From NCBI GenBank assembly GCA_019112785.1, contig DXIQ01000071.1, positions 1-57,197 of the forward strand: a stretch of DNA of 57,197 nt, in the 5' to 3' direction. Shown piece after piece: positions 20,209-49,280 of the stretch. A program made the position numbers and the translations under genes. Each line of letters opens with the position of its first letter. Position 1 is the first letter of the stretch. The notes beneath the pieces are model-generated. The model was given only the letters and a program-made list of their open reading frames with translations, was not told the origin of the DNA and ran no database searches. The DNA is from Candidatus Blautia stercorigallinarum (GTDB lineage Bacteria; Bacillota; Clostridia; Lachnospirales; Lachnospiraceae).

Positions 20209-20233
20209 GGATTTTTTATAGAGACCTCCGTTA
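20209..20233 (+). promoter_or_regulatory. ECF-type island promoter, site 1
   Basis: GGATTTTTT at 20209 and CGTTAG at 20229, spacing 20 from GGA to CGTT. Starts the 20267 gene. Confidence 0.7.
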
Positions 20234-20266
20234 GAAGTACTATCAACGATAAAGGAGGTGCCCATT

Positions 20267-20965
20267 ATGGCAGATAAGACAAACAGAGAAAAGCTAAGAG
20301 TTATTGTTTCGCATGCACAGACAGATGTGAATTTGTGTGCAGTAGCTTACAAGATGATAAAGGCATGCGAAGACGAGGATCGTACGCAGATCTTTGAGGA
20401 ATTCATTAAGAGCGTGAGACGTGATGAATCTGATGAATCTATGAAGTTACCGGTTGTAATTACCAAGCGTGAGGAAGCAAATCTCATGAGCAGGTATGGC
20501 TCTTATGTTGATCAGAAACTTGAGCAGCTTTTGGCAGAGAATCCGGAAGAAAGGGATTTCTACGCAAAACTTGCGGATTTTATTTTCAACGATGAAATGC
20601 TTCAAGATGGTAAAGCAGGAACGATTGCAATCTTTGATTGTGTTATTGATAGAAGACTCCCTTATCATAGGATAGATACTACAAAGGCTATCTCGATGGA
20701 TGAGGATCAACTTCAAGAAATAATGAACACTGTTGGAGAAGAAACGCTTGAAACGATTGATAGGATTATGCAGTTCGATTTTAAACAGAAAACCGAGATG
20801 GCGGGTGTTCTGCTTGATATGATTGAGGAAAGAGGTAGTAGAGAAGAGAAAGCAGTTCTCCTAATCAAAGCATTCAATTATTATGAAAGGATCATTATGA
20901 CACTTAAGAGACATGAGGAGGAATTAAAGAAAATGCTGTTTCGAGGTTTGATGGAGGATGATTAA
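20267..20965 (+). CDS. Island protein of unknown function (232 residues)
   Basis: Acidic, mostly helical, soluble protein. No membrane segment, signal peptide or recognisable catalytic motif. It has an IVSHAQTDVNLCAVAYKMIK N-terminal stretch and a charged helical C-terminus ending LKKMLFRGLMEDD. The start is ATG 20267, eight bases after AGGAGG; an in-frame GTG at 20258 overlaps the ribosome site. It is transcribed alone from a copy of the island promoter and converges on the sigma gene. A partner or regulator of the sigma factor is one possibility, but nothing in the sequence shows it. Confidence 0.7.
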   Translation: MADKTNREKLRVIVSHAQTDVNLCAVAYKMIKACEDEDRTQIFEEFIKSVRRDESDESMKLPVVITKREEANLMSRYGSYVDQKLEQLLAENPEERDFYAKLADFIFNDEMLQDGKAGTIAIFDCVIDRRLPYHRIDTTKAISMDEDQLQEIMNTVGEETLETIDRIMQFDFKQKTEMAGVLLDMIEERGSREEKAVLLIKAFNYYERIIMTLKRHEEELKKMLFRGLMEDD

Positions 20966-20974
20966 TATGAATAT

Positions 20975-21005
20975 AGCAGCCATGCCCGAAAGGGGTATGG
21001 CTGCT
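20975..21005. terminator. Hairpin between convergent genes, probable bidirectional terminator
   Basis: AGCAGCCATGCCC, GAAA loop, GGGGTATGGCTGCT: 13-base stem lying between the stop codons of the 20267 (+) and 21015 (-) genes. T runs are short on both sides. Confidence 0.65.
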
Positions 21006-21014
21006 TAATAAGAA

Positions 21015-21791
21015 TTACTTTACACGGTTAATGATATTGGAGATTTTTGATGAAACTGTTTTGGCTTCCGTATCTTTGTTGGAGAGGATTTTTGATAACC
21101 CTGTTTTCTTTACGGGGGCAACAATCGGAAACTCATCCGGTTCGATTCTGTAGATGCTGGAAAGTTCATCTTTATACAGAGCTATTGCCTTTGATACGGA
21201 GCCGGTGGAAAGAAGAACCTGGGCAATTTCTCTCGGGGTGTCATTAAGTACTTTTGTCGCAATCATGCAGAGAAGAGCATCGGCATTACCGCAGTACTTT
21301 TCAAAAAGAGCAAGAACCTCTTCCTTTGCAATTAACCGCGTTTCGGCTGAGGCGCTTTTGTCAGAAAGATAATCCTCGAGAGTTTTAGTTCTCTTGGAGT
21401 CATCGTCACCATCATGGCGATCAAGGGTTTCATCCAGGGAAATGACCATGTTATGTTCCTTGATGGTGCTACGGTATGTATCGATTACCTTATTGTTTAC
21501 GATTGTATAGAGATACGGGATCATCTGATTAAGATCGTTAGCAAGAACGAGATCGAGTTTATCGATACATCTTTCGAGTACATCATAGTGTACATCTTCA
21601 GTGTCGACACCAAGGTCCTTAAGTTCGAGAAGACGATTGATGTTAGCGTGACTTCTGAATGCCGTGCCAATGATAAAATTGTCGATGGCGAGAAAAACTT
21701 CTGCGTACAGGTCTTCATACTGTGAGAGCTGTTCACGAGTTTTGATACCTAAAGCGTTAACCTTTGAAAATAAGTGAAATAATTTTTTCAT
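21015..21791 (-). CDS. Divergent RNA polymerase sigma-70/ECF-like factor
   Basis: 258 residues. The middle carries YLYTIVNNKVIDTYRSTIK followed by ISLDETLD, which matches the sigma region 2 pattern (W/Y-L-x-x-I-x-x-N-x-x-I-D-x-x-R, then SLDE). The segment from RLIAKEEVLALFEKY through NDTPREIAQVL to SVSKAIALYKDEL has the layout of the region 4 helix-turn-helix (REIA, then a recognition helix). The N-terminal ~90 and C-terminal ~60 residues are extra. It is the only sigma-like gene in the island, and eleven ECF-style promoters lie around it, so it is the natural candidate to read them. A structure prediction would settle the fold. Confidence 0.65.
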   Translation of the reverse strand: MKKLFHLFSKVNALGIKTREQLSQYEDLYAEVFLAIDNFIIGTAFRSHANINRLLELKDLGVDTEDVHYDVLERCIDKLDLVLANDLNQMIPYLYTIVNNKVIDTYRSTIKEHNMVISLDETLDRHDGDDDSKRTKTLEDYLSDKSASAETRLIAKEEVLALFEKYCGNADALLCMIATKVLNDTPREIAQVLLSTGSVSKAIALYKDELSSIYRIEPDEFPIVAPVKKTGLSKILSNKDTEAKTVSSKISNIINRVK

Positions 21792-21971
21792 AGCGACTAC
21801 CTCCGTATTATTGGAATTTCAAGGGCTGTTCCCTATGCTTTTATTAGGCCAGATAGGAAATGGTAGTTATACGGGGGTTCGCAATAAATGAAAATAGAAA
21901 TGTTATAATAGCGATAACCTTTAATAGTAGGTAATAGTGAATAATAGTAATAAGCGAAAGGAGGGTGAAAA

Positions 21972-23369
21972 GTGGATAGATCGGCAACTGAGAGCCTGTT
22001 GAATGCCCTCTTAGAGTGTTTTGAAAAACTAGATATTGACTTTTTAGAAAAAGTGACAATAGATGGAGAAGATGGATATCGTAAAATCACAAACTCAGAT
22101 GTTGTGACTGTATGGGAAACTTATTTTTGCAGCGCCGTAGTAAAACTATCAGTATCTCCGCGCCGAAATGATGCTAGCCCTAATCCTGATGCTTTACGAG
22201 CTTGGCGCAGGGGAGAGGTCAATGATAAGACAAAAAGTACTTTGAGAAAGAAATATATACCTAATATTTCTGCAAAAAATGGCTATACATATATTGACGC
22301 CCAGAAAGAACACATCATCCATTTTCTGGAACTTGCAATTTGTGCTGAAGAAAGTACGTGGGATATAGATAAGAAGTCAATCTATAATGAAAAATATTTA
22401 TTTAAGAAAAAACTTATAGAAAGAGAAAACATATTACCTTATATATATTCAAAGTTTGCAGTGCTTAAAGAATTATTTGAAGGCACTCCAATACAGATAA
22501 TTGATAGCAGAGATGATATAAGATGGTTTTCCGATACTGTCGCTAACAAGATACCTGTGATAGATAATGACGAGAACGAGCGTAAGTTTGCTGCGGTATT
22601 TGCAGCTGCTATGCTTCTAAGCTTAAATATCAAAGATGAAAAAGAAATTCCTACAACGGAGAGCATAAGCGTTGATGAAAGGATAAAAGAATACCTGAAT
22701 AGATTATTCGGTGATGAACCAAAGAACCCTAAAGGATTGCTGCAGGGTGGATCACCAGCACCCAAGGAATCAAAATTCTCTATTTCGCGGAATTCAAAAA
22801 GTGAGAATGAAGATGCCGAAAACAAGAAATCGGAATTGATCGGAGCATTTGATTCATTAAAACTTGCAAAGAATGAAAATGGAATTTTAGAATCAATGAT
22901 TCGAATTAAGCGATCAATAGACAAATGTTTTCTTTCAGCAGAAGACTTAATTAGAATACTTCCAGATGATGATTCGGAAGAATTGAGTAGAGGCTGGATT
23001 GAGTGTGCGTATCGTCTGAAGGATATGATTACAGAAATGGTGGCATACTATAGAGTCGTATTAGAGAGAGATTTGCTGACACAGGATTCGCATGACCAAG
23101 AATTGACATCCTTAAAGATAGATATTCTTGATACTTCTGTTGAGATTTACATTATTCTAGGCTTTCTGGAAGCACAGTTAAAAAATGAGTTTGAGGAATT
23201 GAATCGCTCTGCAGGCAAAATTGAAAAAGAGCAGATACGTTTCAGAATCAGGAAGACAAAAATGGATCTTACAGATATTAGAAGGCAATATGATTCTGCA
23301 GAAATAGATATCACCAATTCGATTGCGGAACATAAGGTTATGTCCAATTATGATATGGGGACGATTTAG
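21972..23369 (+). CDS. Island protein of unknown function (465 residues)
   Basis: Starts at GTG 21972, eight bases after AAAGGAGGG. The N-terminal half is mixed alpha/beta with a basic stretch (SPRRNDASPNPDALRAWRRG); the middle (about residues 240-290) is low complexity and charged; the C-terminal ~170 residues are predicted long helices or coiled coil (ELNRSAGKIEKEQIRFRIRK). No catalytic motif recognised. It leads a four-gene operon with the VirD4-like ATPase and two solenoid proteins. This operon is clearly more AT-rich than the following island genes, which suggests a separate origin. A TATAAT at 21904 may be its -10; the -35 is unclear. Confidence 0.7.
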   Translation: MDRSATESLLNALLECFEKLDIDFLEKVTIDGEDGYRKITNSDVVTVWETYFCSAVVKLSVSPRRNDASPNPDALRAWRRGEVNDKTKSTLRKKYIPNISAKNGYTYIDAQKEHIIHFLELAICAEESTWDIDKKSIYNEKYLFKKKLIERENILPYIYSKFAVLKELFEGTPIQIIDSRDDIRWFSDTVANKIPVIDNDENERKFAAVFAAAMLLSLNIKDEKEIPTTESISVDERIKEYLNRLFGDEPKNPKGLLQGGSPAPKESKFSISRNSKSENEDAENKKSELIGAFDSLKLAKNENGILESMIRIKRSIDKCFLSAEDLIRILPDDDSEELSRGWIECAYRLKDMITEMVAYYRVVLERDLLTQDSHDQELTSLKIDILDTSVEIYIILGFLEAQLKNEFEELNRSAGKIEKEQIRFRIRKTKMDLTDIRRQYDSAEIDITNSIAEHKVMSNYDMGTI

Positions 23370-23380
23370 GAGGCTGAAAA

Positions 23381-25036
23381 ATGACGAATATTCCCGGATT
23401 TGAAAACATAGATAAAATAAGGAAAGAATATCCCTATTTTGACTTGAACACTCGATCATTTTCTGGAAAAAAATCAACAGGGTATTTAGGTGGCATTCCC
23501 TTGATGTTTGATTTTGAGTCCAGAAGACTATATATAGACTCAAGCGATACCCATAGCTTGGTGTATGGTTCAACGGGATCTTTAAAAACACGAACGATTG
23601 TATCTCCTGGTATAAAAGTTTTAGGGTATGCAGGAGAATCCATGATTATCAATGATCCTAAAGGAGAATTGTTTTCAAGGCATGCAGGAGACCTAAAAAA
23701 ACAAGGATATAATATTGTTGAAATCAATTTCCGAGATCCAAGTCTAGGCAATTCATGGAATCCATTATATATTCCGTATCAGTTTTATATAAATGGAGAT
23801 TTGGATAAGTCAGCGGAATTTGTTAATGACATAGCCAATAATTTAATGGTAAGTGATAGGTCTACAGATGACCCGTTTTGGGATTTTTCTGCATCGGATT
23901 TGCTATATGGTTTAATACAACTGTTATTTAGGTATTGCAAGGATCATTCTGCACCAATCAATGCAGTAAATATTGGAAATTTGCTTACGCTTAGAAGAAC
24001 TTTGTTTTCAAGCAAACAGCAGGCTCAGAATACAATCTTGTGGAAATATGCTTCAGAGGATGAACTTGTTGCAGCTAGCTTGTCTGGAAGCGTTTATGCC
24101 CCTAAGGACACAATGAATAGTATTTTAAGTGTATTTGATCAAAAGATGCGTTCGTTTACAATTCAACCAACATTGCTTGAAATGTTAGCAAATAATGACT
24201 TTGATATTGCCGATATCGGAAAAAAGAAAACGGCTGTGTTCCTGATAACTCCGGATGAAAAAACAAGTTATCATCGTCTTGTATCGATGTTTGTTAAGGA
24301 AAGCTATGAGTATCTGATTTTTTTGGCTACACAAACAGAAGAAAACAAGGTCGAAAACCGAATAAATTATATTCTAGATGAATTTTCTTCTCTGCCTAAA
24401 ATTGCTGATATGCCTTCTATGATAAGTGCTGCGAGAAGTAGAGATATTAGATTTCTGCTTGTTGTTCAAAGTCAGTCATCATTAAAGCAAAGGTATGCAG
24501 ACGAAGCTGAAACTATCATATCTAATTGTACTAATTGGATTTTCTTTACGAGTAGAGAATTAGGATTGCTTAGGGAACTGTCGGAATTATGTGGAACTCA
24601 AAAGAATCACATGCCAAACATAAGTGTTTATGATTTGCAGCACCTAAGTAAGGAAAGAAGAGAAGCTCTTGTTCTTGCGGGACGTTTGAAACCTTGCAAA
24701 GTATCTATGTTAGATATAGACCGTTTTGGCGATCGAAGTTATACCTTGCTTGAACATGAGAAAAGGGAAAGAATGGAAAGAAATCACTTGACATTTGAGT
24801 TAAGAGAGGACATTAAGAAGAAATACATCCCACAATTGCCAAGCAATCCGTTTGAAAGATCACCATTCACTATTCCTGGAAATCGACCGGGAGAACCTTT
24901 TGATATCGATGCAACCATACAGGCCATTGATAAGAAAATTGCAGAGCTTGAGGCGGAAGAAAAGAGGGAAAAAGAAGCGCGTGATCAAAAGGCTGCGGAG
25001 AGAATTGATGCAGATAAGAAAGGAGATAACCAATGA
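23381..25036 (+). CDS. VirD4/TraG-like ATPase with non-canonical Walker A
   Basis: 551 residues of the type IV coupling-protein family. The P-loop reads YGSTGSLKTRT around residue 66: the Gly before Lys is Leu, an unusual change. Further family landmarks are INDPKGELFSRHAG, NSWNPLYIPYQF, Walker B YILDEFSSLPKI, and the conserved SAARSRDIRFLLVVQSQSSL. No N-terminal membrane helices are seen, unlike conjugative TraG. The C-terminus has a coiled-coil tail (IDKKIAELEAEE) shared with the second VirD4-like protein at 28721. It probably moves a protein or DNA substrate; the target is unknown. Confidence 0.85.
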   Translation: MTNIPGFENIDKIRKEYPYFDLNTRSFSGKKSTGYLGGIPLMFDFESRRLYIDSSDTHSLVYGSTGSLKTRTIVSPGIKVLGYAGESMIINDPKGELFSRHAGDLKKQGYNIVEINFRDPSLGNSWNPLYIPYQFYINGDLDKSAEFVNDIANNLMVSDRSTDDPFWDFSASDLLYGLIQLLFRYCKDHSAPINAVNIGNLLTLRRTLFSSKQQAQNTILWKYASEDELVAASLSGSVYAPKDTMNSILSVFDQKMRSFTIQPTLLEMLANNDFDIADIGKKKTAVFLITPDEKTSYHRLVSMFVKESYEYLIFLATQTEENKVENRINYILDEFSSLPKIADMPSMISAARSRDIRFLLVVQSQSSLKQRYADEAETIISNCTNWIFFTSRELGLLRELSELCGTQKNHMPNISVYDLQHLSKERREALVLAGRLKPCKVSMLDIDRFGDRSYTLLEHEKRERMERNHLTFELREDIKKKYIPQLPSNPFERSPFTIPGNRPGEPFDIDATIQAIDKKIAELEAEEKREKEARDQKAAERIDADKKGDNQ

Positions 25037-26073
25037 GTACGAATAGTGAGAGAGAGATTATTATTGAACAGAGTGCGGATAACATTTCTGAGGAGTCTGT
25101 ACAGTCGAAAAGAAATGATTTGCTTATGCCTGTAAGTAATGTAAATACAAAAGCACAGGTTTTTCTCGAATATATATACAGCATGGATGATGATGCTGCA
25201 CGAGAGGATCTATATGATTTGATAGATCAATTCTTGGCTCAGGATCAGCAGTCAGGCGATGCAGATGATTTTCATAATTTCGCTGTGGAGTTAGCTAGAA
25301 AAGACGAATATATTTTGGCTTGTAAAGTCGTGGATTGCGGATTGAAGCTGTTTCCAAAGAATGTTGATTTACTTGCAGATTACTTACAGTATGGCGTGAA
25401 TTGTAACAAAATCGAAGAGTGTAAAAAGGTATATAAGACATTAATCAAAATCCCGAAAAGAAGATGGACATGGAGAGGTTTTGCCTTTTTAGTCGATTAC
25501 TTACAGTTTTTGATTGATAGGAGTGATTCAGATAAAGAGATTGATGCAAAAGAAAAAGAAATGATAGAGGTGGCATCTGATTTTAGAAATAGATTTCCAT
25601 ATAGCGAAGAGTCATATAGAGTTGAAGCTTCAGTTTATCATATTCTGGATCCGGAAAAGGAAACAAATATTTTGAAAAAGGCTCTTGATAATGTTAAGGT
25701 TGCCCCTAAGTGTGCTCTTCGATATGCTGATATTATGTTTGAAAGAGGATTTTATGAAGAGGCTGCCGAAGCGATAGGCAGAGGCATCAGCGATGCAACT
25801 CAAACACAAAGTAGCGTTAATGAAGGCTATATTTACTATCTTTCTGCGCTTTGTAAGATCGCTGTTATTCAGAAGAAAAATAAGGACTTTATCATTACTA
25901 AGGAAGAAGCTGAAGATATTTATTCTGATTTCAACATTGCCTTGTCAAAGTTTCAAGGAACGAAGAATAGCTATACCGATGTGATTATTACTAAGACAAA
26001 CACAATAGTGAATAAGTCTGGTGAAACTGTGGATCCAAAGTTCGATTTGCTTTACGATAGTGTGACTCAATGA
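25033..26073 (+). CDS. TPR-like helical solenoid protein
   Basis: 346 residues, mostly paired helices of TPR character (LARKDEYILACKVVDCGLKL, then LYADIMFERGFYEEAAEAI-like units). This suggests a scaffold or adaptor. The start overlaps the stop of the VirD4-like gene (ATGA), so the two products are made together and probably interact. No enzymatic motif is visible. Confidence 0.65.
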   Translation: MSTNSEREIIIEQSADNISEESVQSKRNDLLMPVSNVNTKAQVFLEYIYSMDDDAAREDLYDLIDQFLAQDQQSGDADDFHNFAVELARKDEYILACKVVDCGLKLFPKNVDLLADYLQYGVNCNKIEECKKVYKTLIKIPKRRWTWRGFAFLVDYLQFLIDRSDSDKEIDAKEKEMIEVASDFRNRFPYSEESYRVEASVYHILDPEKETNILKKALDNVKVAPKCALRYADIMFERGFYEEAAEAIGRGISDATQTQSSVNEGYIYYLSALCKIAVIQKKNKDFIITKEEAEDIYSDFNIALSKFQGTKNSYTDVIITKTNTIVNKSGETVDPKFDLLYDSVTQ

Positions 26074-26119
26074 TTTTATTGTGTTTAGGATTTTCTGGAC
26101 GAACAATTAGGATAAAATA

Positions 26120-26995
26120 ATGGTAGGTGTTATGAGTAAAAAGAATATGCCGGATAGTAATGCCGATATTGAAAAAAATGAAGAAATACATCAGATCGAG
26201 AATTGGCTTGAAGAATTGCCAGAATTTGATGAACACGGACATACACCTCTTTCATATGAGGCTCTATTAAGCTTTGTGGGAAATGCAAAAAAAGATAATG
26301 AATCTGCCGATGATAGAGTAATCATCGGCAAAGTGACGGATGTATTGTCGCATGAAACTGATTTGGAACGCATTGATACTCTTTTTGCGTTATTAAAAGA
26401 TCATAATGCAGATAGTTCGGACTATTCAATGATAGGTATGTCCTCATATGAGGTAAAGAACTTTGTTGTATCAGAAAGAGCCTATCGGATGGCTATTGAG
26501 CAATGCACAGAAGACTATCTGATGACTGGATATAAGAATAATTTGGCGTATCTGATAAGAAGAAAGGAACTCGCGAATCCTGAAAATCGAATCAAAAAGG
26601 AAGCTCCAATACTCCTCAGGGACGGCGTAGCTAATAAGGACACGTTCTCTCTTATTAATATGGCTTTATTTTGGACTTTGGAGTGCGGTAGTGAAGAAAA
26701 CTGGGATCTTGCTGATAAGCTTATAAGCTATGTAGATAAAAATGATGTGACGGGTGCACTTGAGTGGTGGAAAGGTGTGGCGTTAGCTGATGAGGCTGAA
26801 GGATACCTCGTTCATCTGTTATTATTTCGTCACGGAAAGATAGGTAGTAGCCCTTTGGGAAGTATCGGGGAATTGTTTGATAGAGTAAAAAAAGACTACC
26901 CAGGGATTCCTGACAAAATGAAGGAAATAGTTACCCCGTTTGATGGTGGTGAGTTTGACAAGTTTCCTACTTTCCCGCCTGTTGATTGGGACTGA
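26120..26995 (+). CDS. Helical-repeat (TPR-like) island protein, function unknown
   Basis: 291 residues. The middle holds TPR-like pairs (FVVSERAYRMAIEQCTEDYL, GYKNNLAYLIRRKELANPEN). ATG 26120 has AGGA seven bases before it; ATG 26132 (MSKKNMPDSN) is an alternative start. Last gene of the 21972 operon. An AGGATTTTCTGG stretch at 26087 imitates the island -35, but no CGTT follows at the right distance, so it is not listed as a promoter. Confidence 0.65.
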   Translation: MVGVMSKKNMPDSNADIEKNEEIHQIENWLEELPEFDEHGHTPLSYEALLSFVGNAKKDNESADDRVIIGKVTDVLSHETDLERIDTLFALLKDHNADSSDYSMIGMSSYEVKNFVVSERAYRMAIEQCTEDYLMTGYKNNLAYLIRRKELANPENRIKKEAPILLRDGVANKDTFSLINMALFWTLECGSEENWDLADKLISYVDKNDVTGALEWWKGVALADEAEGYLVHLLLFRHGKIGSSPLGSIGELFDRVKKDYPGIPDKMKEIVTPFDGGEFDKFPTFPPVDWD

Positions 26996-27034
26996 TAATA
27001 TAAACAAGTATTAAACATGGTTATGAGTGTGATA

Positions 27035-27066
27035 AGACATGAGAATTAATCTCGTGTCTTTTTTTT
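27035..27066 (+). terminator. Intrinsic terminator after the 21972-26995 operon
   Basis: AGACATGAG (27035-27043) pairs with CTCGTGTCT (27051-27059), followed by T8. The next island promoter begins one base after the T run. Confidence 0.9.
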
Positions 27067-27091
27067 GGATTTTTTTCGACCCCATCCGTTA
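27067..27091 (+). promoter_or_regulatory. ECF-type island promoter, site 2
   Basis: GGATTTTTTT at 27067 and CGTTAG at 27087, spacing 20. Drives the ClpP/AAA/VirD4 operon. Confidence 0.75.
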
Positions 27092-27129
27092 GTAATACTA
27101 CAAAACAGATTGAAAGGATGGTGGCACAT

Positions 27130-27342
27130 ATGACAGCACAAGACTATATGGTCAGGGAAAACATTGAACTTACCAATATTGCAGGGAGCAATCTTGTCAT
27201 AGGAAACAAGAAGATAATTCTTCAGGAAAAAGTGGATATTTTTGTGCCCCCAATTGTTAAGAGCAATACAGGCATAATCATTGCTGATGCGAGTACTGAT
27301 TTGAATCGCATTTATGCAGAAGTTTCAGGAAGAATCAGATAA
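27130..27342 (+). CDS. Small island protein of unknown function (70 residues)
   Basis: MTAQDYMVRENIELTNIAGS start; alternating hydrophobic residues suggest a small beta-rich domain (NLVIGNKKIILQEKVDIFV). ATG 27130 is preferred over ATG 27118, which overlaps the AAAGGATGGTGG ribosome site. It is the first gene after island promoter 2 and lies 14 bases before the ClpP-like gene. No family recognised. Being small and beta-rich, it is one candidate for the missing modifier or adaptor of the island conjugation system, but it has no C-terminal GG. Confidence 0.65.
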   Translation: MTAQDYMVRENIELTNIAGSNLVIGNKKIILQEKVDIFVPPIVKSNTGIIIADASTDLNRIYAEVSGRIR

Positions 27343-27356
27343 GGGAGGAAATGAAA

Positions 27357-41466: not shown

Positions 41467-42570
41467 ATGAATCAGATAATAGAAATGAATGTATCTACAC
41501 CTGAACAGTTCATCAGAGCAGTCAGATTATCACGGAATGTCTTTGAAAACCAGACAGTTATCAATGTGATAAACAGAGGAGAAAGCTTTGCCAGAGCATC
41601 TGAGCTGACATCTGATATACAGTATGGGGTTACTTCACTTTATAAGAATACCGTTGGTTCTTTTGCCGGAGCACAATTATCTCAATTCTCCATTCAAATG
41701 GTATCTGATCCGTTTGGGAGATTCTCGAAATTGCTTATAAATGCCAGATATTTCAGCAGCCCCAAAGAACTTAATGACCTGATATGTGTATCAGCTGAAA
41801 TAGCCGGTCTGCTTAATAAGAAAGTAAGAAACCGCAGTGATGATCTCGAAAAAATATACATCTTTGATCGGTGGGTGAGAAAAAACTTTGAGTACAAGAG
41901 CACAAGCCAGATGGAGGATCATACGGCAATAAATCTCCTGAAGAGTCGGAGCGGTGTCTGCCAGGCGATAGCGGCGATAGCAGTGTTGGTATTATCATAC
42001 ATGGGGGTTAAAGTCCTTTATGTATCAGGCGAAGGAAAAGGAAACAGAGGATGGGGGCCGCATGCATGGAATTCAGCATATATTAACGGACAATGGATAC
42101 ATATGGATTTTACATTTTCCATGAATTCCTTAAGATTGCCATGCACAAAATCCGGAATAGAAGAGAAATTCTTTGTTAAAACACATCGGTGGGACAAAAA
42201 AGAGTATAGCAGCCGATCGATGGATTCTAAGTGGAAGAGTATCTGTTGGAATAAAGAGAAAGGGGTAAATATTATTGTTAATGCTGAAAGCTGCCGCATC
42301 AATGGAGTTGAGGTAAAGTTTTCTTCTAAATTGCTCGTAAAAGATGGAAACAGGATTCTTGTTGATCTTGCCAGCATAATAAGGCTTATGGGCGGGGGCA
42401 TAGAGTTGATTCCCAATACGGGCACTATAAATGTTTGTGTTTGCAACAAAAGGATTATTCTTAAAGGCGCTCTGAAGCATTTTCATGATGGTTTTTTTGA
42501 TCAGATTGTGCTCAATCATATCTGGAAGAACGAATGCATCAATGATTCTGAACTTAGAATCGCAATTTAA
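41467..42570 (+). CDS. Transglutaminase-like protein with copper amine oxidase-type N1 repeat
   Basis: 367 residues. Transglutaminase-like site: Cys in KSRSGVCQAIAAIAVLVLS (about residue 163), His in GPHAWNSAYING (about 199) and Asp in WIHMDFTFS (about 214), the Cys-His-Asp order of the family. The C-terminal ~100 residues read like a copper amine oxidase N-terminal domain (CRINGVEVKFSSKLLVKDGN, then VDLASIIRLMGG). No signal peptide is apparent at the N-terminus. It could crosslink, cleave or modify the island substrates. Part of the E1/WXG/toxin operon. Confidence 0.75.
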   Translation: MNQIIEMNVSTPEQFIRAVRLSRNVFENQTVINVINRGESFARASELTSDIQYGVTSLYKNTVGSFAGAQLSQFSIQMVSDPFGRFSKLLINARYFSSPKELNDLICVSAEIAGLLNKKVRNRSDDLEKIYIFDRWVRKNFEYKSTSQMEDHTAINLLKSRSGVCQAIAAIAVLVLSYMGVKVLYVSGEGKGNRGWGPHAWNSAYINGQWIHMDFTFSMNSLRLPCTKSGIEEKFFVKTHRWDKKEYSSRSMDSKWKSICWNKEKGVNIIVNAESCRINGVEVKFSSKLLVKDGNRILVDLASIIRLMGGGIELIPNTGTINVCVCNKRIILKGALKHFHDGFFDQIVLNHIWKNECINDSELRIAI

Positions 42571-42582
42571 GGTGGTGATGTT

Positions 42583-42927
42583 ATGGTCAATGTGGTGTCA
42601 GCGGGAAGGTTTAAGGGAAAAAGAATAAAAGCTGACTGTGAAGGGGTGTTTATTCCGTTTGGAAGAGAGCATCTTGATATAACGCCAGAGATTGTTGACC
42701 ATATTAGGATGATGAGTATGACACAAAACAGGAGCTTTCTCAGCGGATTTCTTAGAGGCTTTTTTTCTAAATGGCTTGGCAGCACGGCATGGTTATCGGC
42801 GATTCAGAGTGCGCAGGGCAAAAGCCAATTCCGAATAAGAATAGCCTATAGAGATGGGACGGCGAGTGTTTGTGTTATTGATGATTGTGTACTTGATCAG
42901 CTGGCGGTAACATTCGACTTAATCTGA
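42583..42927 (+). CDS. Island protein of unknown function (114 residues)
   Basis: Beta-rich ends (MVNVVSAGRFKGKRIKADCE; FRIRIAYRDGTASVCVIDD) flank a central amphipathic or partly hydrophobic helix (SFLSGFLRGFFSKWLGSTAW). Last gene of the E1/WXG/toxin operon, before a terminator. No family recognised. Confidence 0.6.
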   Translation: MVNVVSAGRFKGKRIKADCEGVFIPFGREHLDITPEIVDHIRMMSMTQNRSFLSGFLRGFFSKWLGSTAWLSAIQSAQGKSQFRIRIAYRDGTASVCVIDDCVLDQLAVTFDLI

Positions 42928-42928
42928 G

Positions 42929-42957
42929 ACCTTCACTTTGAAAAGTGGAGGTTTTCT
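42929..42957 (+). terminator. Intrinsic terminator merging into the next island promoter
   Basis: ACCTTCACTTT pairs with AAAGTGGAGGT around a short loop, followed by TTTC. The 3' arm and T run contain the GGAGGTTTT of promoter 8. Confidence 0.75.
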
Positions 42958-42971
42958 TATCTGTATCGTTA
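42947..42971 (+). promoter_or_regulatory. ECF-type island promoter, site 8
   Basis: GGAGGTTTT at 42947 and CGTTAA at 42967, spacing 20. Drives the phosphoesterase-to-PcfJ operon. Confidence 0.75.
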
Positions 42972-43003
42972 ATATAAATAAACGGATGGAGGAGGTGCCG
43001 GGA

Positions 43004-43723
43004 ATGATATATGTTACGGGAGATACACATGGAGATCAGATCCTTTGGGATGCATGTATAGGTAATTTCCTAAAGGAAGGGGATACCATAATTGTTCTCG
43101 GAGACTTTGGAATTGGTTTCTTCGATGGCAGATACTGGCCTGAGGAAATGTTTTATGATTACCTGTCAGAACAGAAATATACGGTTCTGTTTATCGATGG
43201 CAATCATGAGAACTTTGAAAAATTAAATTCTTTTCCGGTGGATCAATGGAATGGCGGGCGTGTCCGGTTTATACGGGATAACGTGATTCACCTTATGAGA
43301 GGTGAAATATATGACATTGACGGGAAAAAGGTTTTCTGCTTTGGCGGCGGGTACTCATTGGACAAAGATTATCGTGTTCCGGGGAGAACGTGGTGGCCAC
43401 AGGAGATGCCGAACGATGGAGAATACAGGAATGCAACAAAGAATTTGGAAGAGTGCGGATTTAAGGTTGACTATATCCTGACTCATACCGCTCCGGCAGA
43501 TACAGTGGAATATATGTCCAGATTAAGTCTTGGAATTAAAAATACTGTTGTTGAAGAACTTCCTCTGACCAGTTATCTTCAGTGGATTGTTGAGAAGGCG
43601 CAATACGACAAGTGGTTTTTCGGTCACTTTCATATAGATGCTGAGCTTTGGAAAAATCAGTATGCAGTACTTGACGGTATAAGAGAATTGCATACAGGTA
43701 ACTTGATCAAAATTAGATGTTAA
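43004..43723 (+). CDS. Metallophosphoesterase of the island
   Basis: 239 residues. Motifs in order: YVTGDTHGDQ, VLGDFGIGFFDG, FIDGNHENFE, ILTHTAPAD and FFGHFHIDAE, the full dimetal calcineurin-like set. ATG 43004 follows GGAGGAGG. This resembles small phage/island phosphoesterases acting on nucleic acid or nucleotide phosphates; a role in removing a signal or modifying secreted material is possible. It is not closely similar to the chromosomal enzyme at 18024. Confidence 0.88.
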   Translation: MIYVTGDTHGDQILWDACIGNFLKEGDTIIVLGDFGIGFFDGRYWPEEMFYDYLSEQKYTVLFIDGNHENFEKLNSFPVDQWNGGRVRFIRDNVIHLMRGEIYDIDGKKVFCFGGGYSLDKDYRVPGRTWWPQEMPNDGEYRNATKNLEECGFKVDYILTHTAPADTVEYMSRLSLGIKNTVVEELPLTSYLQWIVEKAQYDKWFFGHFHIDAELWKNQYAVLDGIRELHTGNLIKIRC

Positions 43724-43740
43724 AGGAAGGAGATGATTCT

Positions 43741-44238
43741 ATGCCGATTATTTTTATTGCAGAAAACAATGAGTACAATCCATTGGAACTCGAACCATAC
43801 AAATCGTTCAATAAAAAGTTCGAGGACAGAGAGGATGATCTCGAAGGGGCGCTGATAAAAATTAGTATTCCCAATCATAGAAAAGGGTTTGTTGATGGAT
43901 TCAGTATTGACCGATATTACTGTGATGATATCACCCTAAAGTTCATGTTCTCGCATATCCATGGATCCAGCAGCGAGAACAGTATCTTAATACATCATAC
44001 GATTGAATATGATTTTGATACATCGTTTGTAGAGATTCAGCAGGACATGGCAGAAGAGTTTAAATCAAGAGCGGAACATATTTATATTCCGGGTGTCAAG
44101 CAGCTTGAATTGTCATATCGCCTGACATCAAAAAGCGTTCAGCTGATATTTGATGTAGTGACGGAAGAAAAAAGTCTTCAAACAATCTGTAATCAGCTGA
44201 TCAGCCATGATGTAGCGATATTTTCGAGAGGGTGGTAG
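43741..44238 (+). CDS. Island protein of unknown function (165 residues)
   Basis: Soluble, mixed alpha/beta: MPIIFIAENNEYNPLELEPY start and beta-rich middle (LIKISIPNHRKGFVDGFSID; TLKFMFSHIHGSS). AAGGAAGGAG lies before ATG 43741. Lies 18 bases after the phosphoesterase and 5 bases before the ASCH gene. No family recognised. Confidence 0.6.
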   Translation: MPIIFIAENNEYNPLELEPYKSFNKKFEDREDDLEGALIKISIPNHRKGFVDGFSIDRYYCDDITLKFMFSHIHGSSSENSILIHHTIEYDFDTSFVEIQQDMAEEFKSRAEHIYIPGVKQLELSYRLTSKSVQLIFDVVTEEKSLQTICNQLISHDVAIFSRGW

Positions 44239-44242
44239 GAAC

Positions 44243-44665
44243 ATGATTTATGAGATGAATCTTAATGCGTCGCCATTTGAAAAGATTGCTTCTGGGAGCA
44301 AGACCTTTGAACTAAGGCTTTTTGATGCGAAGCGCAGAAGAATCGATATAGGAGACAGGATAGTTTTTACGAATCTTGATAATCCTATGAAGAAGATTGC
44401 TGTTACCGTGAGATCTTTACATAGGTATGCGTCTTTTGAGGATCTGTTTGCAGATATTCCTATTGAAAAGTGCGGCAATAGCAGTACAGATACTCCGGAT
44501 ATGGCTGCCGCAGGGATGAGTAAATACTATACAGCTGATCAGATTCGGAAATATGGGGTACTTGGTATCGAGATAGTAATTACGGATACGTCGAAGGTAC
44601 TGAAACAACTGGAAGAACAAAAAGAGGCTGAATTCGATAGGCTTTTTCCAGATGGAATGAAGTAA
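44243..44665 (+). CDS. ASCH domain protein
   Basis: 140 residues. LNASPFEKIASGSKTFELRL, then DAKRRRIDIGDRIVFTN fits the ASCH fold pattern (PFxxIxxGxKTxExR, GDxIxF), a PUA-like RNA-binding or nuclease-like domain. A C-terminal helix (LKQLEEQKEAEFDRLF) follows. ASCH proteins can bind RNA or act on modified cytidine. The local role is unknown. Confidence 0.8.
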   Translation: MIYEMNLNASPFEKIASGSKTFELRLFDAKRRRIDIGDRIVFTNLDNPMKKIAVTVRSLHRYASFEDLFADIPIEKCGNSSTDTPDMAAAGMSKYYTADQIRKYGVLGIEIVITDTSKVLKQLEEQKEAEFDRLFPDGMK

Positions 44666-44700
44666 AAAGTACAAAATATGAAATGGAAGGAGGGTAGCAT

Positions 44701-46161
44701 ATGATTTCGATGACAGAGCTTGAAAGGATGCTTTTCCGCTGCCCTGAAGTAAACATTTCAAAATATCCTCAGGCTTCGTATGAGGAATTCCTGCTGATGG
44801 ATCATGATTTTTCCGGAGAGTATGTATGTGTCTACCCTTTTGTCAAAATGGATGAATCAGGAACACCGTATGTAGAAATATATGTTTGGGATTCGATGCT
44901 TTATCCGGACATATATGAGAGCTTTATTATTTGCGAGGGAATGAGGCTTACAGACGTATTGGAAGAAAAGCTGCTTAATTATTGCAGAGAACCTCTTCTC
45001 CGTATTGGTTATCAGCGCATGGACAGTTTTAATTCTGCTTTGCTTGAGTGCTTCCCGCGATGGCATTGTATAGAATATTCTGCCGAGAACATTGGAAGAT
45101 GTATTGAACACATCTATTATGCAAGCCACCATTCCGGTCCCAGGGAGATATTATACAAAGCCGGGCTCGGAAACATCGCATATAACATAAAACAACTGCC
45201 TATGGTTAATCTTGTTGGATCGACTGTATCAGCAATAGTAGGTCATAATCTGCCGATAAAACTTCTGCGCATTTTGGATAAGCCGGAATTAATCGATGTC
45301 CTGTATGAAGAAGATAGTACTGAACATGCACTTGGCGTATATAGGGCATATTCAAGTCATATTGGAAAGGCTATTCCTTCAGCTAATCAGTGGAGATATC
45401 TGGATGAATTGTATTCCAATGGCGGAAAGTTCGCAGGTATGGTTTTCAATCGTTCTTTATATAAACGTTTGAGTCATACTGATAACGAATATATCCTCGA
45501 ACGTTACAAGAGATATTTTGAATTGTATGAAGAGTTAAAAATTAACAGGCGCATTAGAATACCAAAAGCTGATGAGTTGTGGGAAGCTACTGAGCGGCTT
45601 GAGTACCTTCAAGAATACAGCGACGAAAGAGAAGCTATAGACGCACAGTTTAGAAGCAGAAAGCACTGTGGACGTCCGGTATATGAGTATTCTGATAACT
45701 CCTATCTGGTGATTTTGCCAGAATCGTGTGCTGATATATGCAGAGAAGCAATTTCCCAAGAGAATTGTCTTATGGATTATATCTGCAGGCATGCATCGGG
45801 GGAAACAACTATATTGTTTTTAAGGAAAAAAGATAAACCGGACGAATCTTTTGTGACAATGGAAGTGAAGGACTGGCAGATCAAACAGGTATACGGATGT
45901 TGCAATACAATACCGGGAAAAGATGTTTTTCAGTTCCTTGTTGAAAAGTATTCAAGGAAGAAAGCTTTATTCATGGATTTGGATTCAATGGTAGATAACT
46001 GTCTGGATCAAGAGTATGAACCGGATGATGAGTTAATGGAATACTTAAGTGGTCTTCTGAGAAGCAACAATGCAAATAGCATGGCGGCATGCAATCAAGA
46101 TGAGAATGAATACATACAGCTTACATTGGCAGATATGTTTCCTGATGTTTTTGATGGTTGA
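44701..46161 (+). CDS. PcfJ-like protein
   Basis: 486 residues. The C-terminal third carries the PcfJ-type signature: YLVILPESCADICREAISQE, a spaced Cys, then TTILFLRKKDKPDESFVTME and WQIKQVYGCCN. PcfJ-like proteins occur on plasmids and mobile elements; their biochemical function is unknown. The N-terminal part is rich in aromatic residues with no known domain. It ends the operon begun at 43004. GGAAGGAGGG precedes the ATG. Confidence 0.75.
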   Translation: MISMTELERMLFRCPEVNISKYPQASYEEFLLMDHDFSGEYVCVYPFVKMDESGTPYVEIYVWDSMLYPDIYESFIICEGMRLTDVLEEKLLNYCREPLLRIGYQRMDSFNSALLECFPRWHCIEYSAENIGRCIEHIYYASHHSGPREILYKAGLGNIAYNIKQLPMVNLVGSTVSAIVGHNLPIKLLRILDKPELIDVLYEEDSTEHALGVYRAYSSHIGKAIPSANQWRYLDELYSNGGKFAGMVFNRSLYKRLSHTDNEYILERYKRYFELYEELKINRRIRIPKADELWEATERLEYLQEYSDEREAIDAQFRSRKHCGRPVYEYSDNSYLVILPESCADICREAISQENCLMDYICRHASGETTILFLRKKDKPDESFVTMEVKDWQIKQVYGCCNTIPGKDVFQFLVEKYSRKKALFMDLDSMVDNCLDQEYEPDDELMEYLSGLLRSNNANSMAACNQDENEYIQLTLADMFPDVFDG

Positions 46162-46165
46162 AAAT

Positions 46166-46190
46166 GGATATCGTGGCAGTCTCATCGTTT
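46166..46190 (+). promoter_or_regulatory. ECF-type island promoter, site 9
   Basis: GGATATCGT at 46166 and CGTTTG at 46186, spacing 20. Precedes the 46222 gene. Confidence 0.65.
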
Positions 46191-46221
46191 GTAAGAGTAT
46201 AGATATAAGGAGGAGCAGAGC

Positions 46222-46635
46222 ATGGGGTATTTTTCTGAACTGGATATAAATAATGCCTGTTATGAGGATCACAGTTATCCATCTCCTGAAATGGAATTGA
46301 GATGGAGAATAGAAGATCTGAGAAGCAGATTAGATGAAATAACAAACGGCGAGTATGGAATTACTGCACACTATTTTATGGGATGTCAATTTTCTAAAGA
46401 TGATCTTGCATTTACTCCGCCTGAATACTTTTCCAGAGTATCAGATATATTAGATGCTATTGCTATTGCAGAGGAAGAATTAGCCATGTCTGATTGCGAA
46501 GAGCCTGAAAACGCAATTAAGGATACTTCAATCGAGATTGGCATTGAAGAGATTCCAGGGCAGCTAACTATTTGGGATATTCCTATAGATGACCTTATAG
46601 ATTGTCCTGAAGAGAGAATGGAAGCTGCTGCGTAG
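46222..46635 (+). CDS. Acidic island protein of unknown function (137 residues)
   Basis: Highly acidic; helical middle (MELRWRIEDLRSRLDEITNG, DILDAIAIAEEELAMS). The C-terminus reads EIPGQLTIWDIPIDDLIDCP. AGGAGGAG before ATG 46222. Transcribed alone from its own island promoter and followed at once by another. No family recognised. An acidic inhibitor or adaptor role would fit but is not shown. Confidence 0.65.
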   Translation: MGYFSELDINNACYEDHSYPSPEMELRWRIEDLRSRLDEITNGEYGITAHYFMGCQFSKDDLAFTPPEYFSRVSDILDAIAIAEEELAMSDCEEPENAIKDTSIEIGIEEIPGQLTIWDIPIDDLIDCPEERMEAAA

Positions 46636-46682
46636 AGAAATTTAGGGATTCCGCTGAAATAAAATGTTTCTTGTGCAAAAAT

Positions 46683-46707
46683 GGAGATTCGGCTTGGCTT
46701 ATCGTTT
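46683..46707 (+). promoter_or_regulatory. ECF-type island promoter, site 10
   Basis: GGAGATTCG at 46683 and CGTTTA at 46703, spacing 20. Drives the membrane protease operon. Confidence 0.7.
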
Positions 46708-46745
46708 ATATACATAGAAATCCAAAAGAAACGGAGGGCGAAGCC

Positions 46746-47837
46746 ATGAAGAGAAATACATTGTGTAGAAGAGATTATGTTTTGGAGACTGTATTCTGGG
46801 GCATCATTGCATTCATTTGGTATCAGAATTTGTTCTTTATTAACATTCCGGGGAAGACGGTGCCGGAATCCAACCTGATTCTAATCGCAATGGTTGGGGT
46901 AAGCGTTACCGTTAATCTTGTCTTCACAATCCGATGGAGCAGAAATACGGTTTCTGCAATTACAGCAACCCTGCTTCCGTATGGTGCTTATGCATATATT
47001 ACATATGCAAAATACATGGCTAAAACCTATAGAATTACCTATAGAATTGTCTTGTGGGCGGCGATTGGAATCTGCGTGCTGACAGCGCTTTATATTGCTG
47101 TTGTAAAAATGAATGCGAGGAGTAAGCGCAGACTTGTCTTTAGAAAAGTAAGAATGACATACTCAGCCGTCAGATTTGTAGGAGCCGCTGCAAGTGTCAC
47201 CCTTATAATCTGCCTGTTTTGCAGATCATATATAGGAGGGGCGTTGATTACACCGGGTGAAAAAGCAGCATCTTCGTATGGAGAGCAATATACAATAGCG
47301 GCAAATATCGATACAGTTCTCTTACTTCAGGAAGAAGAGTGGGAAAAACTCAATCTTGATGAACGCATGGATGTTCTGCAATGTATATGCAATATCGAAG
47401 GGAATTATCTCGGGCTGGATCGCGGAGTACATATATATGCTTCCAAATTAGATGATAATCTTTTGGGCTATTACAATGACTCGGCATCATCTATACAGAT
47501 TTCAATTGATTTAGTTGAGTCAGGAGATCCATATGAAACCCTTGATTGCGTCTGCCATGAAATGTTTCATGCCGGGCAGGCCAGATATGTTGAGATATAT
47601 GAAGGGTTAGATGATGAGGCTAAGAGGTCGTACTTCCTTTATAACGCCTCCGTTTATGCAGAAGAGTTCCATGATTACAAGAATGCAAGAATGAGTGATG
47701 ACGTGTCAGATTATCTTGAGTATTATGGCCAGTGGTGCGAACAGGATGCCAGAGAGTACGCTTACAAAGCAGTCTTGGACTATTACGAAAGAATAGATGA
47801 GTATCTCGAACAACACGGTAATAGTTTGGATGAGTAG
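46746..47837 (+). CDS. Membrane protein with C-terminal HExxH metalloprotease domain
   Basis: 363 residues. Five hydrophobic helices occupy roughly residues 15-175 (ETVFWGIIAFIWYQNLFF through AAASVTLIICLFCRSYI). The rest is a soluble domain with CVCHEMFHAGQA (HExxH about residue 270) and a downstream Glu-rich helix, consistent with a gluzincin-type protease. ATG 46746 follows GGAGGGCGAAG. With the S2P-like protease encoded next it could process exported proteins at the membrane. No named family recognised. Confidence 0.7.
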   Translation: MKRNTLCRRDYVLETVFWGIIAFIWYQNLFFINIPGKTVPESNLILIAMVGVSVTVNLVFTIRWSRNTVSAITATLLPYGAYAYITYAKYMAKTYRITYRIVLWAAIGICVLTALYIAVVKMNARSKRRLVFRKVRMTYSAVRFVGAAASVTLIICLFCRSYIGGALITPGEKAASSYGEQYTIAANIDTVLLLQEEEWEKLNLDERMDVLQCICNIEGNYLGLDRGVHIYASKLDDNLLGYYNDSASSIQISIDLVESGDPYETLDCVCHEMFHAGQARYVEIYEGLDDEAKRSYFLYNASVYAEEFHDYKNARMSDDVSDYLEYYGQWCEQDAREYAYKAVLDYYERIDEYLEQHGNSLDE

Positions 47838-47847
47838 AGGTGAGAGC

Positions 47848-48867
47848 ATGAAATATCCCTTTTTTTCAAATTGGATAGCCTATAAAAGAATACCAGGTCA
47901 GGATGCGTATTACGTCAAGGATTTTGTTCTGGATACGGAAAGCATTATTACGTCAGAAATGATGGCGTTTGCAAAAAAGCTGGATGGAAAAACGGATCCT
48001 TATTCTATCAGAGGTAAGAGAAGTTTATCAGAGACTAGGAAGCTGATTGATGAACTTGCTTATATGGGTGTTATCAGAAAGGATCATGGCATTGTCTCAG
48101 ATGGTGAAGGGTTCTATATGAGGACGCTGATCAGAACGAGGAATACAAAAGCCAAAAGGGTTTTATCGAAAATCCTAAATGTTGCGCTGATGTTTGCATT
48201 CATACCGATTCTGGTTTCAGGGATACTTGTTTATTTGAATGCTGATGAATTTGGATATCTTGAACAGAGCATACTGGGAAGAATTGTGTATGACCATCCT
48301 GTATTGTGCGTATGGTTTTTTAACATCTTTTCCCTGCTTCTTGGAGCCGTGATTCATGAAATATGCCACGGTATTGCGTGCAGAGCTTATGGCGGGCGCG
48401 TTTTCGAGTATGGAGCCATGATTAATATACTTCCAGGATTTTATACATTGATGGATGAATCAAAAGTACGATCAAGGTTAAAGAAGATTCAAGTTCTGGC
48501 GGTTGGCGTAGAAGGAAATCTGTTATTGGCAGGCTGTCTGCTGCTCCTTACAGGTGTTCTCCCGGAACTGAAATATGTTTTTTCTGTAGGGGCACTTATA
48601 AACATCATAATGACATTCATCAACATGCTGGCAATTGACGGGACAGATGGTATGAAAATACTTCTTCTTTTGATAGGTATGGAAGAGAAGGATATAGATG
48701 ATATCAAATGTATGACAAAGGGGAAAAATAAGAGGGAGATGCTTGCAAACGATGGTTATTATGGTGTGGCGAAGCTGACAGCATGTCATATAATCATCTG
48801 GCTTCAGCGGATATATCCGATAGTTATTTTGTTAGATGTCATAGCAGTGATAGGAGCCTTTTTATGA
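47848..48867 (+). CDS. M50/site-2-protease-like membrane metalloprotease
   Basis: 339 residues. An N-terminal ~90-residue cytosolic region is followed by several membrane helices. The active-site helix reads AVIHEICHGIACRAYGGRVF (HExxH) and the second site lies in LAIDGTDGMKILL, matching the N/D-x-x-DG element of M50 proteases. Related proteins process or export peptides. ATG 47848 is chosen by its GAGGTGAG site; it lies 11 bases after the previous gene. It overlaps the next gene by four bases (ATGA). Confidence 0.78.
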   Translation: MKYPFFSNWIAYKRIPGQDAYYVKDFVLDTESIITSEMMAFAKKLDGKTDPYSIRGKRSLSETRKLIDELAYMGVIRKDHGIVSDGEGFYMRTLIRTRNTKAKRVLSKILNVALMFAFIPILVSGILVYLNADEFGYLEQSILGRIVYDHPVLCVWFFNIFSLLLGAVIHEICHGIACRAYGGRVFEYGAMINILPGFYTLMDESKVRSRLKKIQVLAVGVEGNLLLAGCLLLLTGVLPELKYVFSVGALINIIMTFINMLAIDGTDGMKILLLLIGMEEKDIDDIKCMTKGKNKREMLANDGYYGVAKLTACHIIIWLQRIYPIVILLDVIAVIGAFL

Positions 48868-49244
48868 AAGATGGAATCAAGACAAAACTGATATTGTTAA
48901 GTCCCGTAATAACAACTATGTTTTCATGGTGTGCGAACAGGTTTCTGTTGACATTTCTATCAGTTGTTGCAGTTTTCTTCTGTATAAGTATATGTCCTCC
49001 ATGCAGAAAACATGAAAATCTTTGGCTGTTTGTTCTTGCTGGTATTTCAACAATCCCTGCCAATATAGAAATAAGCATATTTGCTTGCGGCTGCTTTTCT
49101 TATCTGTGGGGAGAATCCCCGGTGCTTAGGATAATATACTTTCCGTTGGCATACGCCATTTTGCTCTGCATAGAAGAAATAATACTTGGCATTATCGGAA
49201 GGTTTATCTGGAAAAATCAAGATCCTATATTCGATGAAGAGTGA
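48864..49244 (+). CDS. Small membrane protein of the protease operon
   Basis: 126 residues with four predicted helices (LILLSPVITTMFSW; FLLTFLSVVAVFFCISI; LWLFVLAGISTIPANIEISI; FPLAYAILLCIEEIILGIIG). Cys-rich between helices. ATG 48864 overlaps the M50 stop, so it is coupled to it. It resembles a CPBP-like or SagE-like fragment only in general character; no family assigned. Confidence 0.65.
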   Translation: MKDGIKTKLILLSPVITTMFSWCANRFLLTFLSVVAVFFCISICPPCRKHENLWLFVLAGISTIPANIEISIFACGCFSYLWGESPVLRIIYFPLAYAILLCIEEIILGIIGRFIWKNQDPIFDEE

Positions 49245-49255
49245 GGATTTTTTAT

Positions 49256-49280
49256 GGAGAAATATTACTGGGATTCATTA
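49256..49280 (+). promoter_or_regulatory. ECF-type island promoter, site 11 (variant -10)
   Basis: GGAGAAATA at 49256 and CATTAA at 49276, spacing 20. The -10 has CATT instead of CGTT, so it may be weaker. A 115-base leader follows before 49391. Confidence 0.5.

Follow-up and report, generated by a model that had tools for sequence, protein, structure and literature searches.

One two-box promoter-like motif across a 34-kb island of Candidatus Blautia stercorigallinarum, and a candidate sigma factor gene within it

The DNA considered here is a 57,197-nucleotide stretch of Candidatus Blautia stercorigallinarum (GenBank assembly GCA_019112785.1, contig DXIQ01000071.1, positions 1 to 57,197), referred to below as the window. 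It contains a 34.0-kb island in which a single promoter-like motif, a GGA box followed at one fixed distance by a CGTT box, stands ahead of nearly all units of cargo genes; that the motif heads these units and is confined to the island is strongly supported. The island also carries, on its minus strand, a gene for a putative, divergent sigma factor of the extracytoplasmic function (ECF) kind, which is the likely reader of these sites.

The island and its genes

The island interrupts a host gene, the separated pieces of which match PF01541 and PF09848. At two loci of congeners (L071 and L072) the same gene is uninterrupted, and the window aligns up to 19159 or 19158 and again from 53160, the 34.0 kb standing in place of 560-561 bp of the host gene. 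A previous examination of the letters alone (the sequence-only reading) had proposed a mobile regulon, and its mobility gains support from this insertion polymorphism, the two congeners being without the island, and from a fragment found in another assembly. The principal features besides the motif sites are as follows.

19160..53159, no strand: island, a 34.0-kb insertion in a gene with GIY-YIG and Schlafen-group-3-helicase parts
19971..20204, plus strand: XRE/Cro-type regulator (PF13443, E 3.8e-19), without a motif site
21015..21791, minus strand: putative divergent sigma-70 family protein of ECF-like layout, 258 amino acids, suggested by weak profile hits and a predicted fold
51127..52737, plus strand: large serine recombinase (PF07508 and PF00239), near the right end of the island

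The cargo includes two TraG/VirD4-like ATPases, ClpP, an FtsK/EccC-like ATPase, a SprT-like protein (below cut-off), a JAB protein and a ThiF/E1-like protein. Further cargo proteins are of the DUF2625, transglutaminase-like, metallophosphoesterase-like, ASCH, PcfJ-like and M50-like kinds, and one has a weak NucA/NucB DNase match (below cut-off). Small XRE-type regulators lie near both island ends, at 19971-20204 and 52867-53079, and the former is preceded by a sigma-A-like sequence, TTGACT-N17-TATACT, at 19895-19923.

Eleven sites with one motif

The sequence-only reading had named eleven sites by the position of their GGA: 20209, 27067, 30558, 34434, 35468, 35778, 38184, 42947, 46166, 46683 and 49256. 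Place, spacing and strand were confirmed for every one. GGA is followed exactly 20 bases downstream by the second box, always on the plus strand, and this −10 box is of the CGT(T) type, being CGTT at ten sites and CATT at one (49256). The sites are listed with the units that they precede and with their leave-one-out scores, obtained with weight matrices of 43 positions; the last figure is the number of background positions scoring as high, among 798,320 (400 kb of this genome, counted on both strands).

20203..20245, plus strand: P1 (GGA 20209), before unit 20267-20965, the protein next to the sigma candidate; 22.3, 0
27061..27103, plus strand: P2 (GGA 27067), before unit 27130-30553, with a 70-amino-acid open reading frame (ORF), a ClpP-like protein, a 248-amino-acid ORF and a TraG/VirD4-like ATPase; 16.5, 0
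30552..30594, plus strand: P3 (GGA 30558), before unit 30661-34360, with a protein hydrophobic by eye and the FtsK/EccC-like ATPase; 26.4, 0
34428..34470, plus strand: P4 (GGA 34434), before unit 34535-35272, SprT-like (Pfam match below cut-off); 31.7, 0
35462..35504, plus strand: P5 (GGA 35468), before unit 35550-38144, with a 438-amino-acid protein and a JAB-domain protein; 23.4, 0
35772..35814, plus strand: P5' duplicate (GGA 35778), inside the preceding frame and before an in-frame ATG at 35859; 30.3, 0
38178..38220, plus strand: P6 (GGA 38184), before unit 38237-42927, with a ThiF/E1-like protein, a small ORF, a WXG100-like protein (by eye), a NucA/NucB-type DNase-like protein (below cut-off), a DUF2625 protein, a transglutaminase-like protein and a 114-amino-acid ORF; 27.0, 0
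42941..42983, plus strand: P7 (GGA 42947), before unit 43004-46161, with a metallophosphoesterase-like protein, a 173-amino-acid ORF, an ASCH protein and a PcfJ-like protein; 29.6, 0
46160..46202, plus strand: P8 (GGA 46166), before unit 46222-46635; 13.5, 1
46677..46719, plus strand: P9 (GGA 46683), before unit 46746-49244, with a membrane-like protein (by eye), an M50-like protease and a 153-amino-acid ORF; 25.9, 0
49250..49292, plus strand: P10 (GGA 49256, CATT), before unit 49391-49630; 13.4, 0
40284..40326, plus strand: candidate twelfth site (GGA 40290, CGTA); full-matrix score 20.2, against maxima of 13.8 in the background and 19.5 in a composition-matched control

The likeness among the eleven extends beyond the boxes. 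At all of them the base preceding GGA (−1) is T, the base preceding CGTT (+19) is C or T, the base directly past CGTT (+24) is A or T, and +27 and +33 are both A; +32 is T at nine. The motif holds about 30 bits of information across 48 columns (site 35778 excluded).

Sites 35468 and 35778 are not independent, because they share a tandem duplication of 135 nucleotides, 83.7% identical, that runs from the −10 box onward. Their −35 parts lie outside the duplicated block and differ, yet both have TGGA at the exact spacing. In the window the duplication spans 35486-35929 and consists of the leader and first codons of the 438-amino-acid gene, fused in frame. This pair, together with the occurrence of GGATTTTTT at three of the eleven sites, is what might suggest chance or shared ancestry, with the sites as copies of one duplicated leader. 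The spacers between the two boxes vary among sites, however, and the leave-one-out scores remain high even though the duplicated pair was left out together, which makes such an origin scarcely credible.

Statistical support

On the plus strand of 19700-49700, GGA and CGTT occur 13 times at the N17 spacing and 0-3 times at each of the 15 alternatives between N10 and N25. Ten of the 13 matches are among the eleven sites; the other three (30178, 38539 and 43785) are intragenic, and none of them scores above 5.4 on the weight matrix. GGA-N17-CGTT is found 19 times in the window, against 4.35 (standard deviation 2.04) in 100 shuffles, of which the largest count was 10. Genome-wide the bare pattern shows no enrichment (310 matches versus 384 for the reversed pattern), and as evidence it was rejected for that reason.

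A leave-one-out test and an unbiased dyad scan were chosen to avoid testing the motif on its defining sites. When left out (35468 and 35778 together), the sites score 13.4-31.7; ten of eleven beat all background positions, one such position scoring as high as 46166, and nine sites reach at least 16.5, eight of these at least 22. The background has a G+C content of 0.461, versus 0.417 for the island. In the composition-matched control (3.4 Mb of simulated one-strand sequence with the dinucleotide statistics of the island, scored with the full matrix), 15 positions reached at least 13.4, with a maximum of 19.5, and about 0.15 such positions would be expected per island strand. This weakens the two weakest sites, 46166 and 49256, somewhat, and they are less certain than the other nine; the odds as a whole are unchanged by the control, because nine sites remain at 16.5 or above.

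In the dyad scan, which covered the 183,720 trinucleotide-spacer-tetranucleotide combinations seen in 19700-49700, this motif ranks first. The four top combinations on the plus strand are shifted views of it, and the top one on the minus strand is the same motif backwards; the best log10 p is −8.3, versus −5.7 in a control stretch (1-19000). The candidate twelfth site at 40290 (GGA-N17-CGTA), which lies within the toxin-like gene and took no part in training, scores above every background position, and its function is doubtful.

Placement before genes

The distance to the genes, given earlier as 33-115 bases, is 29-111 nucleotides when counted from the last base of CGTT to a start codon preceded by a Shine-Dalgarno sequence. 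Starts were picked by that sequence, and ATG 27130 and ATG 43004 were chosen by hand over the GTG codons of the script for the 27067 and 42947 units. With these starts, noncoding DNA makes up 7.4% of 19700-49700 and ten of the eleven sites lie wholly within it (binomial p 5e-11); with the longest frames taken as genes, seven of eleven lie in the 5.6% that is then noncoding (p 5e-7). The choice of starts by Shine-Dalgarno sequence favours the first of these results. Site 35778 is within the preceding reading frame, as are 35468, 42947 and 46683 if the longest frames are the genes.

Between 26996 and 49390, the only noncoding gap of at least 50 nucleotides to lack a site is 39632-39845, and this one contains another small open frame. 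The earlier statement that the motif heads nearly all cargo operons is borne out, the units without a site being the sigma gene, the 21972-26995 operon, the 5' XRE gene, the TatD gene at 49709 and the recombinase. Elsewhere, gaps of at least 50 nucleotides that lack a site are those before the XRE gene and the TatD gene and the one that separates the sigma gene from the divergent operon 21972-26995.

Could the motif be an operator for an island regulator, such as an XRE protein, lying beside sigma-A promoters? The small XRE-type genes at 19971 and 52867 would provide the regulator. A scan for sigma-A-like promoters found no more sites overall than in shuffles, and because of that equality it cannot exclude such promoters. 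The motif, though, is asymmetric, with two boxes at one fixed spacing and fixed A's downstream, and at six of the eleven sites it ends 29-39 nucleotides ahead of the start codon, where a core promoter fits best. Moreover, the leaders are short (20-30 nucleotides from A33 to the start at six of eleven), so that a second, sigma-A promoter would scarcely fit downstream. An operator role is therefore improbable.

A GGA followed by a run of T's might also be a terminator remnant, with CGTT as a second conserved element that has no joint role with it. The GGA does lie in the right arm of a hairpin at 42947 and 38184, and the site at 27067 (P2) comes directly 3' of a terminator-like hairpin. Scans of the whole stretch, however, give such hairpins at only two of the eleven sites, and folding of four sites adds one (38184), while 34434 and 49256 fold little better than shuffles (z −0.9 and −1.4). 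Neither the fixed spacing nor A27 and A33 would be expected from terminators, and in the duplicated pair both −35 halves, though neither is a copy of the other, retain TGGA at exactly this spacing. This explanation is highly improbable.

Several structures adjoin the sites. At 38154-38187 a 15-pair inverted repeat (one G-U pair, z −6.5) contains the −35 box of P6 in its right arm; no T-run follows, and it is perhaps not a terminator. The terminator-like hairpin at 42926-42955 overlaps P7, its right arm and T-run forming the −35 region of that site. Just 3' of P3, a 19-pair hairpin at 30595-30635 (z −3.7) lies in the predicted leader of the FtsK/EccC-like operon and could be a leader control element.

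Confinement to the island

The motif can be extended to TGGA-N15-(A/T)(C/T)CGTT(A/T)-NN-A-N5-A. This pattern has 14 matches in the 3.33-Mb genome, ten of them in the 34.0-kb island (all on the plus strand) and four in the other 3.29 Mb, and its reversed form has none. The comparison of densities inside and outside the island, which the sequence-only reading had proposed, therefore came out far from equal. The four outside matches lie within open frames of at least 90 codons and score below 8, like chance; the lowest of the eleven sites scores 26 on the same full matrix, to which the site itself had contributed in training.

With a slightly stricter pattern, among 397 genomes of the family, the genome itself has 11 matches (nine in the island), the next two have 7 and 6, and most have 0-2. 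The six in one of these genomes (G054) are spread over six contigs, and in another (G321) three of the four among the matches listed are identical copies, far apart. A pattern scan of IMG/VR gave three loci, with exact matches scoring below 11. At locus L051, which has 31% G+C, matrix hits of up to 18.2 are scattered over both strands, the best within a frame of 4,197 codons, and we take them for composition effects; L052 has no matrix hit above 11 and L053 has two at 11.

The candidate sigma gene

The protein of 21015-21791 falls below curated cut-offs, with 14.5 of 24 bits for Sigma70_r2 and 15.7 of 42.9 for TIGR02937; such a cut-off is a naming rule and not a defining property. In a profile search, 13 families reached E ≤ 1, of which 12 are sigma factors, and the predicted fold is like that of region 2, the domain of sigma-70 proteins that binds RNA polymerase and the −10 box. 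ECF sigmas consist of regions 2 and 4 and lack region 3; in the model, the space between residue 119 and four predicted helices at 149-214 would take no more than a linker, and that part has a predicted local distance difference test score (pLDDT) below 50. The weak but one-sided profile hits and the region-2-like fold support, without proving, that the gene encodes a sigma factor. Alignment with host ECF sigmas by hhalign gave nothing, and a sequence search of solved structures gave one irrelevant hit (E 0.45). ECF sigmas commonly have their own promoter and an anti-sigma gene as neighbour; here no motif lies ahead of the gene, whether by matrix scan or by survey of gaps. We infer that this protein reads the island promoters.

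The sole close relative found, 91% identical, lies on a 3.1-kb contig (L005) of an uncultured Clostridia assembly (G397), the one relative among 61 candidate stretches of the genome_contigs search. The unit 20267-20965 remains beside the sigma gene there, and P1 (20209) is conserved, with differences at 3 of 62 bases and none in TGGA, CGTT, A27 or A33; the aligned noncoding DNA near this promoter is identical at 117 of 148 bases, with many gaps. In the 1.5 Mb of G397 the extended pattern occurs once, at the orthologous P1 beside the sigma relative, and the reversed pattern also once. Only this promoter can be compared, because the assembly has none of window 29000-48900. The contig would accordingly link sigma gene and promoter in a second genome, for one promoter only.

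Between the two sigma genes, the rate of nonsynonymous substitution (dN) is 0.047 and that of synonymous substitution (dS) 0.284, and by this measure the gene is under purifying selection. Its dS is 0.035 in the last 42 codons versus 0.455 in the first 144, a drop that might reflect recombination or a hidden element. Searches for further relatives returned none in plasmids or phages, and in IMG/VR 18 candidate stretches included no relative. Apart from the gene itself, 299 family genomes gave a single weak hit, interrupted by stops, and 391 class genomes gave two weak hits. By eye, these two are a ribosome GTPase, rejected as a chance hit, and a SigI-like sigma.

The host genome has 13 Sigma70_r2 matches of its own, several of ECF size, and ECF regulons can include acquired genes. 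It is thus conceivable that a host ECF sigma reads the promoters and that the sigma-like gene of the island has another role. Yet the low-scoring outside matches, all within open frames, leave no host target of such type in the 91%-complete assembly, and the single match in G397 again adjoins the sigma relative. Reading by a host sigma is unlikely.

A proposed transcription switch and its known counterparts

The explanation preferred here, to which we assign a probability of roughly three in four, is that a divergent ECF-like sigma encoded by the island drives ten island units through the shared promoter. The island of 19160-53159 would carry its own transcription switch, in which the product of 21015-21791 works with the core RNA polymerase of the host and recognises TGGA(G/T)(A/T)TT ... 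(T/C)CGTT(A/T)..A.....A. RNA would probably start about 7-10 bases past CGTT at ten transcription units that make up most of the island, namely those for the TraG-like and FtsK/EccC-like ATPases, ClpP, the SprT-like, JAB, E1/ThiF and WXG-like proteins, the DNase-like toxin, the immunity-like protein and proteases. Because no motif precedes the sigma gene or the divergent operon 21972-26995, the amount of sigma would be determined by other signals, perhaps involving the XRE protein of 19971, and a rise in that amount would turn the island on as a unit.

As for its relation to known promoters, the sequence-only reading had seen the standard ECF geometry. CGTT is indeed a classic ECF −10 box, but AAC is absent from the −35 box at all eleven sites and CGTT lies one base nearer to GGA than in GGAAC-N16-CGTT, the promoter of EcfG in alphaproteobacteria. 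In what PMC7083833 reports of that system, CATT is a less active variant and AAC is mismatched in 3 of 79 −35 boxes; AAC is described there as typical of ECF promoters, not universal. A divergent sigma region 4 would fit a −35 box without AAC.

Sigma factors of comparable roles have been described. HrpL of Pseudomonas syringae is an ECF sigma that coordinates a type III secretion system and its effectors (PMC5263251, PMC3879358), and resembles the proposed switch as an ECF sigma with a secretion regulon. By the account in PMC3879358, HrpL is a recognised ECF sigma with CCAC as second box, whereas the island has CGTT, a far more divergent sigma and no convincing target outside itself. According to the relevant part of PMC7438776, TcdR of the Clostridioides difficile pathogenicity locus is likewise an alternative sigma that drives genes of its clostridial locus, but it belongs to group 5 and drives its own gene; the boxes of the island are ECF-like and its sigma gene lacks the motif. 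The same source mentions sigma-like genes on mobile elements of the Tn916, Tn1549 and Tn5397 types that might transcribe the element's own genes, with a promoter consensus still to be identified in C. difficile, whereas for the island a consensus can be written.

Sigmas of secretion regulons (HrpL) and of toxin loci (TcdR) are known, as are sigma-like genes carried by conjugative transposons, and we judge the island to be a variant of that kind. Its promoter code had no match in the open-access literature searched, which is not proof of absence. It is about as likely as not that the protein founds a sigma class of its own. Such a class would combine an ECF-type −10 box with an AAC-less −35 box (TGGA plus an A/T-run) and give an island of secretion-like, ubiquitin-pathway-like and toxin genes a private channel, an orthogonal regulon that travels complete.

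One island here offers about ten promoters and a candidate sigma gene, which makes the promoter code writable and testable. If the proposal is true, the island illustrates how a large cargo could be kept silent up to the appearance of its own sigma, and it provides a sigma/promoter pair with only four further pattern matches in the host assembly, all of chance-like score.

Cargo relatives and other observations

The secretion genes are called only type-VII-like, because the EccCa match reaches 85.5 of the 509 bits of the equivalog cut-off and the WXG-like protein (39846-40115, 89 amino acids), labelled WXG100 by eye, has no hit in a Pfam search. Downstream of the WXG-like gene, 40129-41462 encodes a protein whose C-terminal part gives a weak NucA/NucB-like match and then a DUF2625 protein; judged by these matches, the pair looks like a toxin with its immunity protein. 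PADLOC, run on ten island proteins, gave weak FtsK-type, JAB and E1-E2 family matches, and no system was inferred.

Sister islands were also sought by cargo. Among the 397 family genomes, the FtsK-like query matched at most at about 105 bits, in seven other genomes; in plasmids it matched 356 records, each at less than 60% identity and with coverage short of 80%. With the TraG-like query 34 phage records were matched, again always below 60% identity, and IMG/VR yielded no relatives in scans with the FtsK-like and JAB queries. In 391 class genomes the JAB query found one distant cluster (L036) with JAB, ThiF and FtsK/EccC-type genes; it yields no sigma hit at E ≤ 1, and its best matrix score, 13.6, does not exceed the background maximum. 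This cluster (7862-15154 of L036, belonging to a different family of the class) carries homologues of the JAB protein, the ThiF protein and the C-terminal part of the 35550 product beside an FtsK/EccC-type ATPase, and the E1/JAB module thus appears to recur with type-VII-like ATPases. Two Gloeothece plasmids were also matched by the JAB query.

Rfam gave a single element in the window, outside the island. It is an ordinary glycine riboswitch (RF00504, 2365-2460) upstream of a 451-amino-acid gene at 2694-4049, the product of which, by eye, looks like an amino-acid/sodium symporter.

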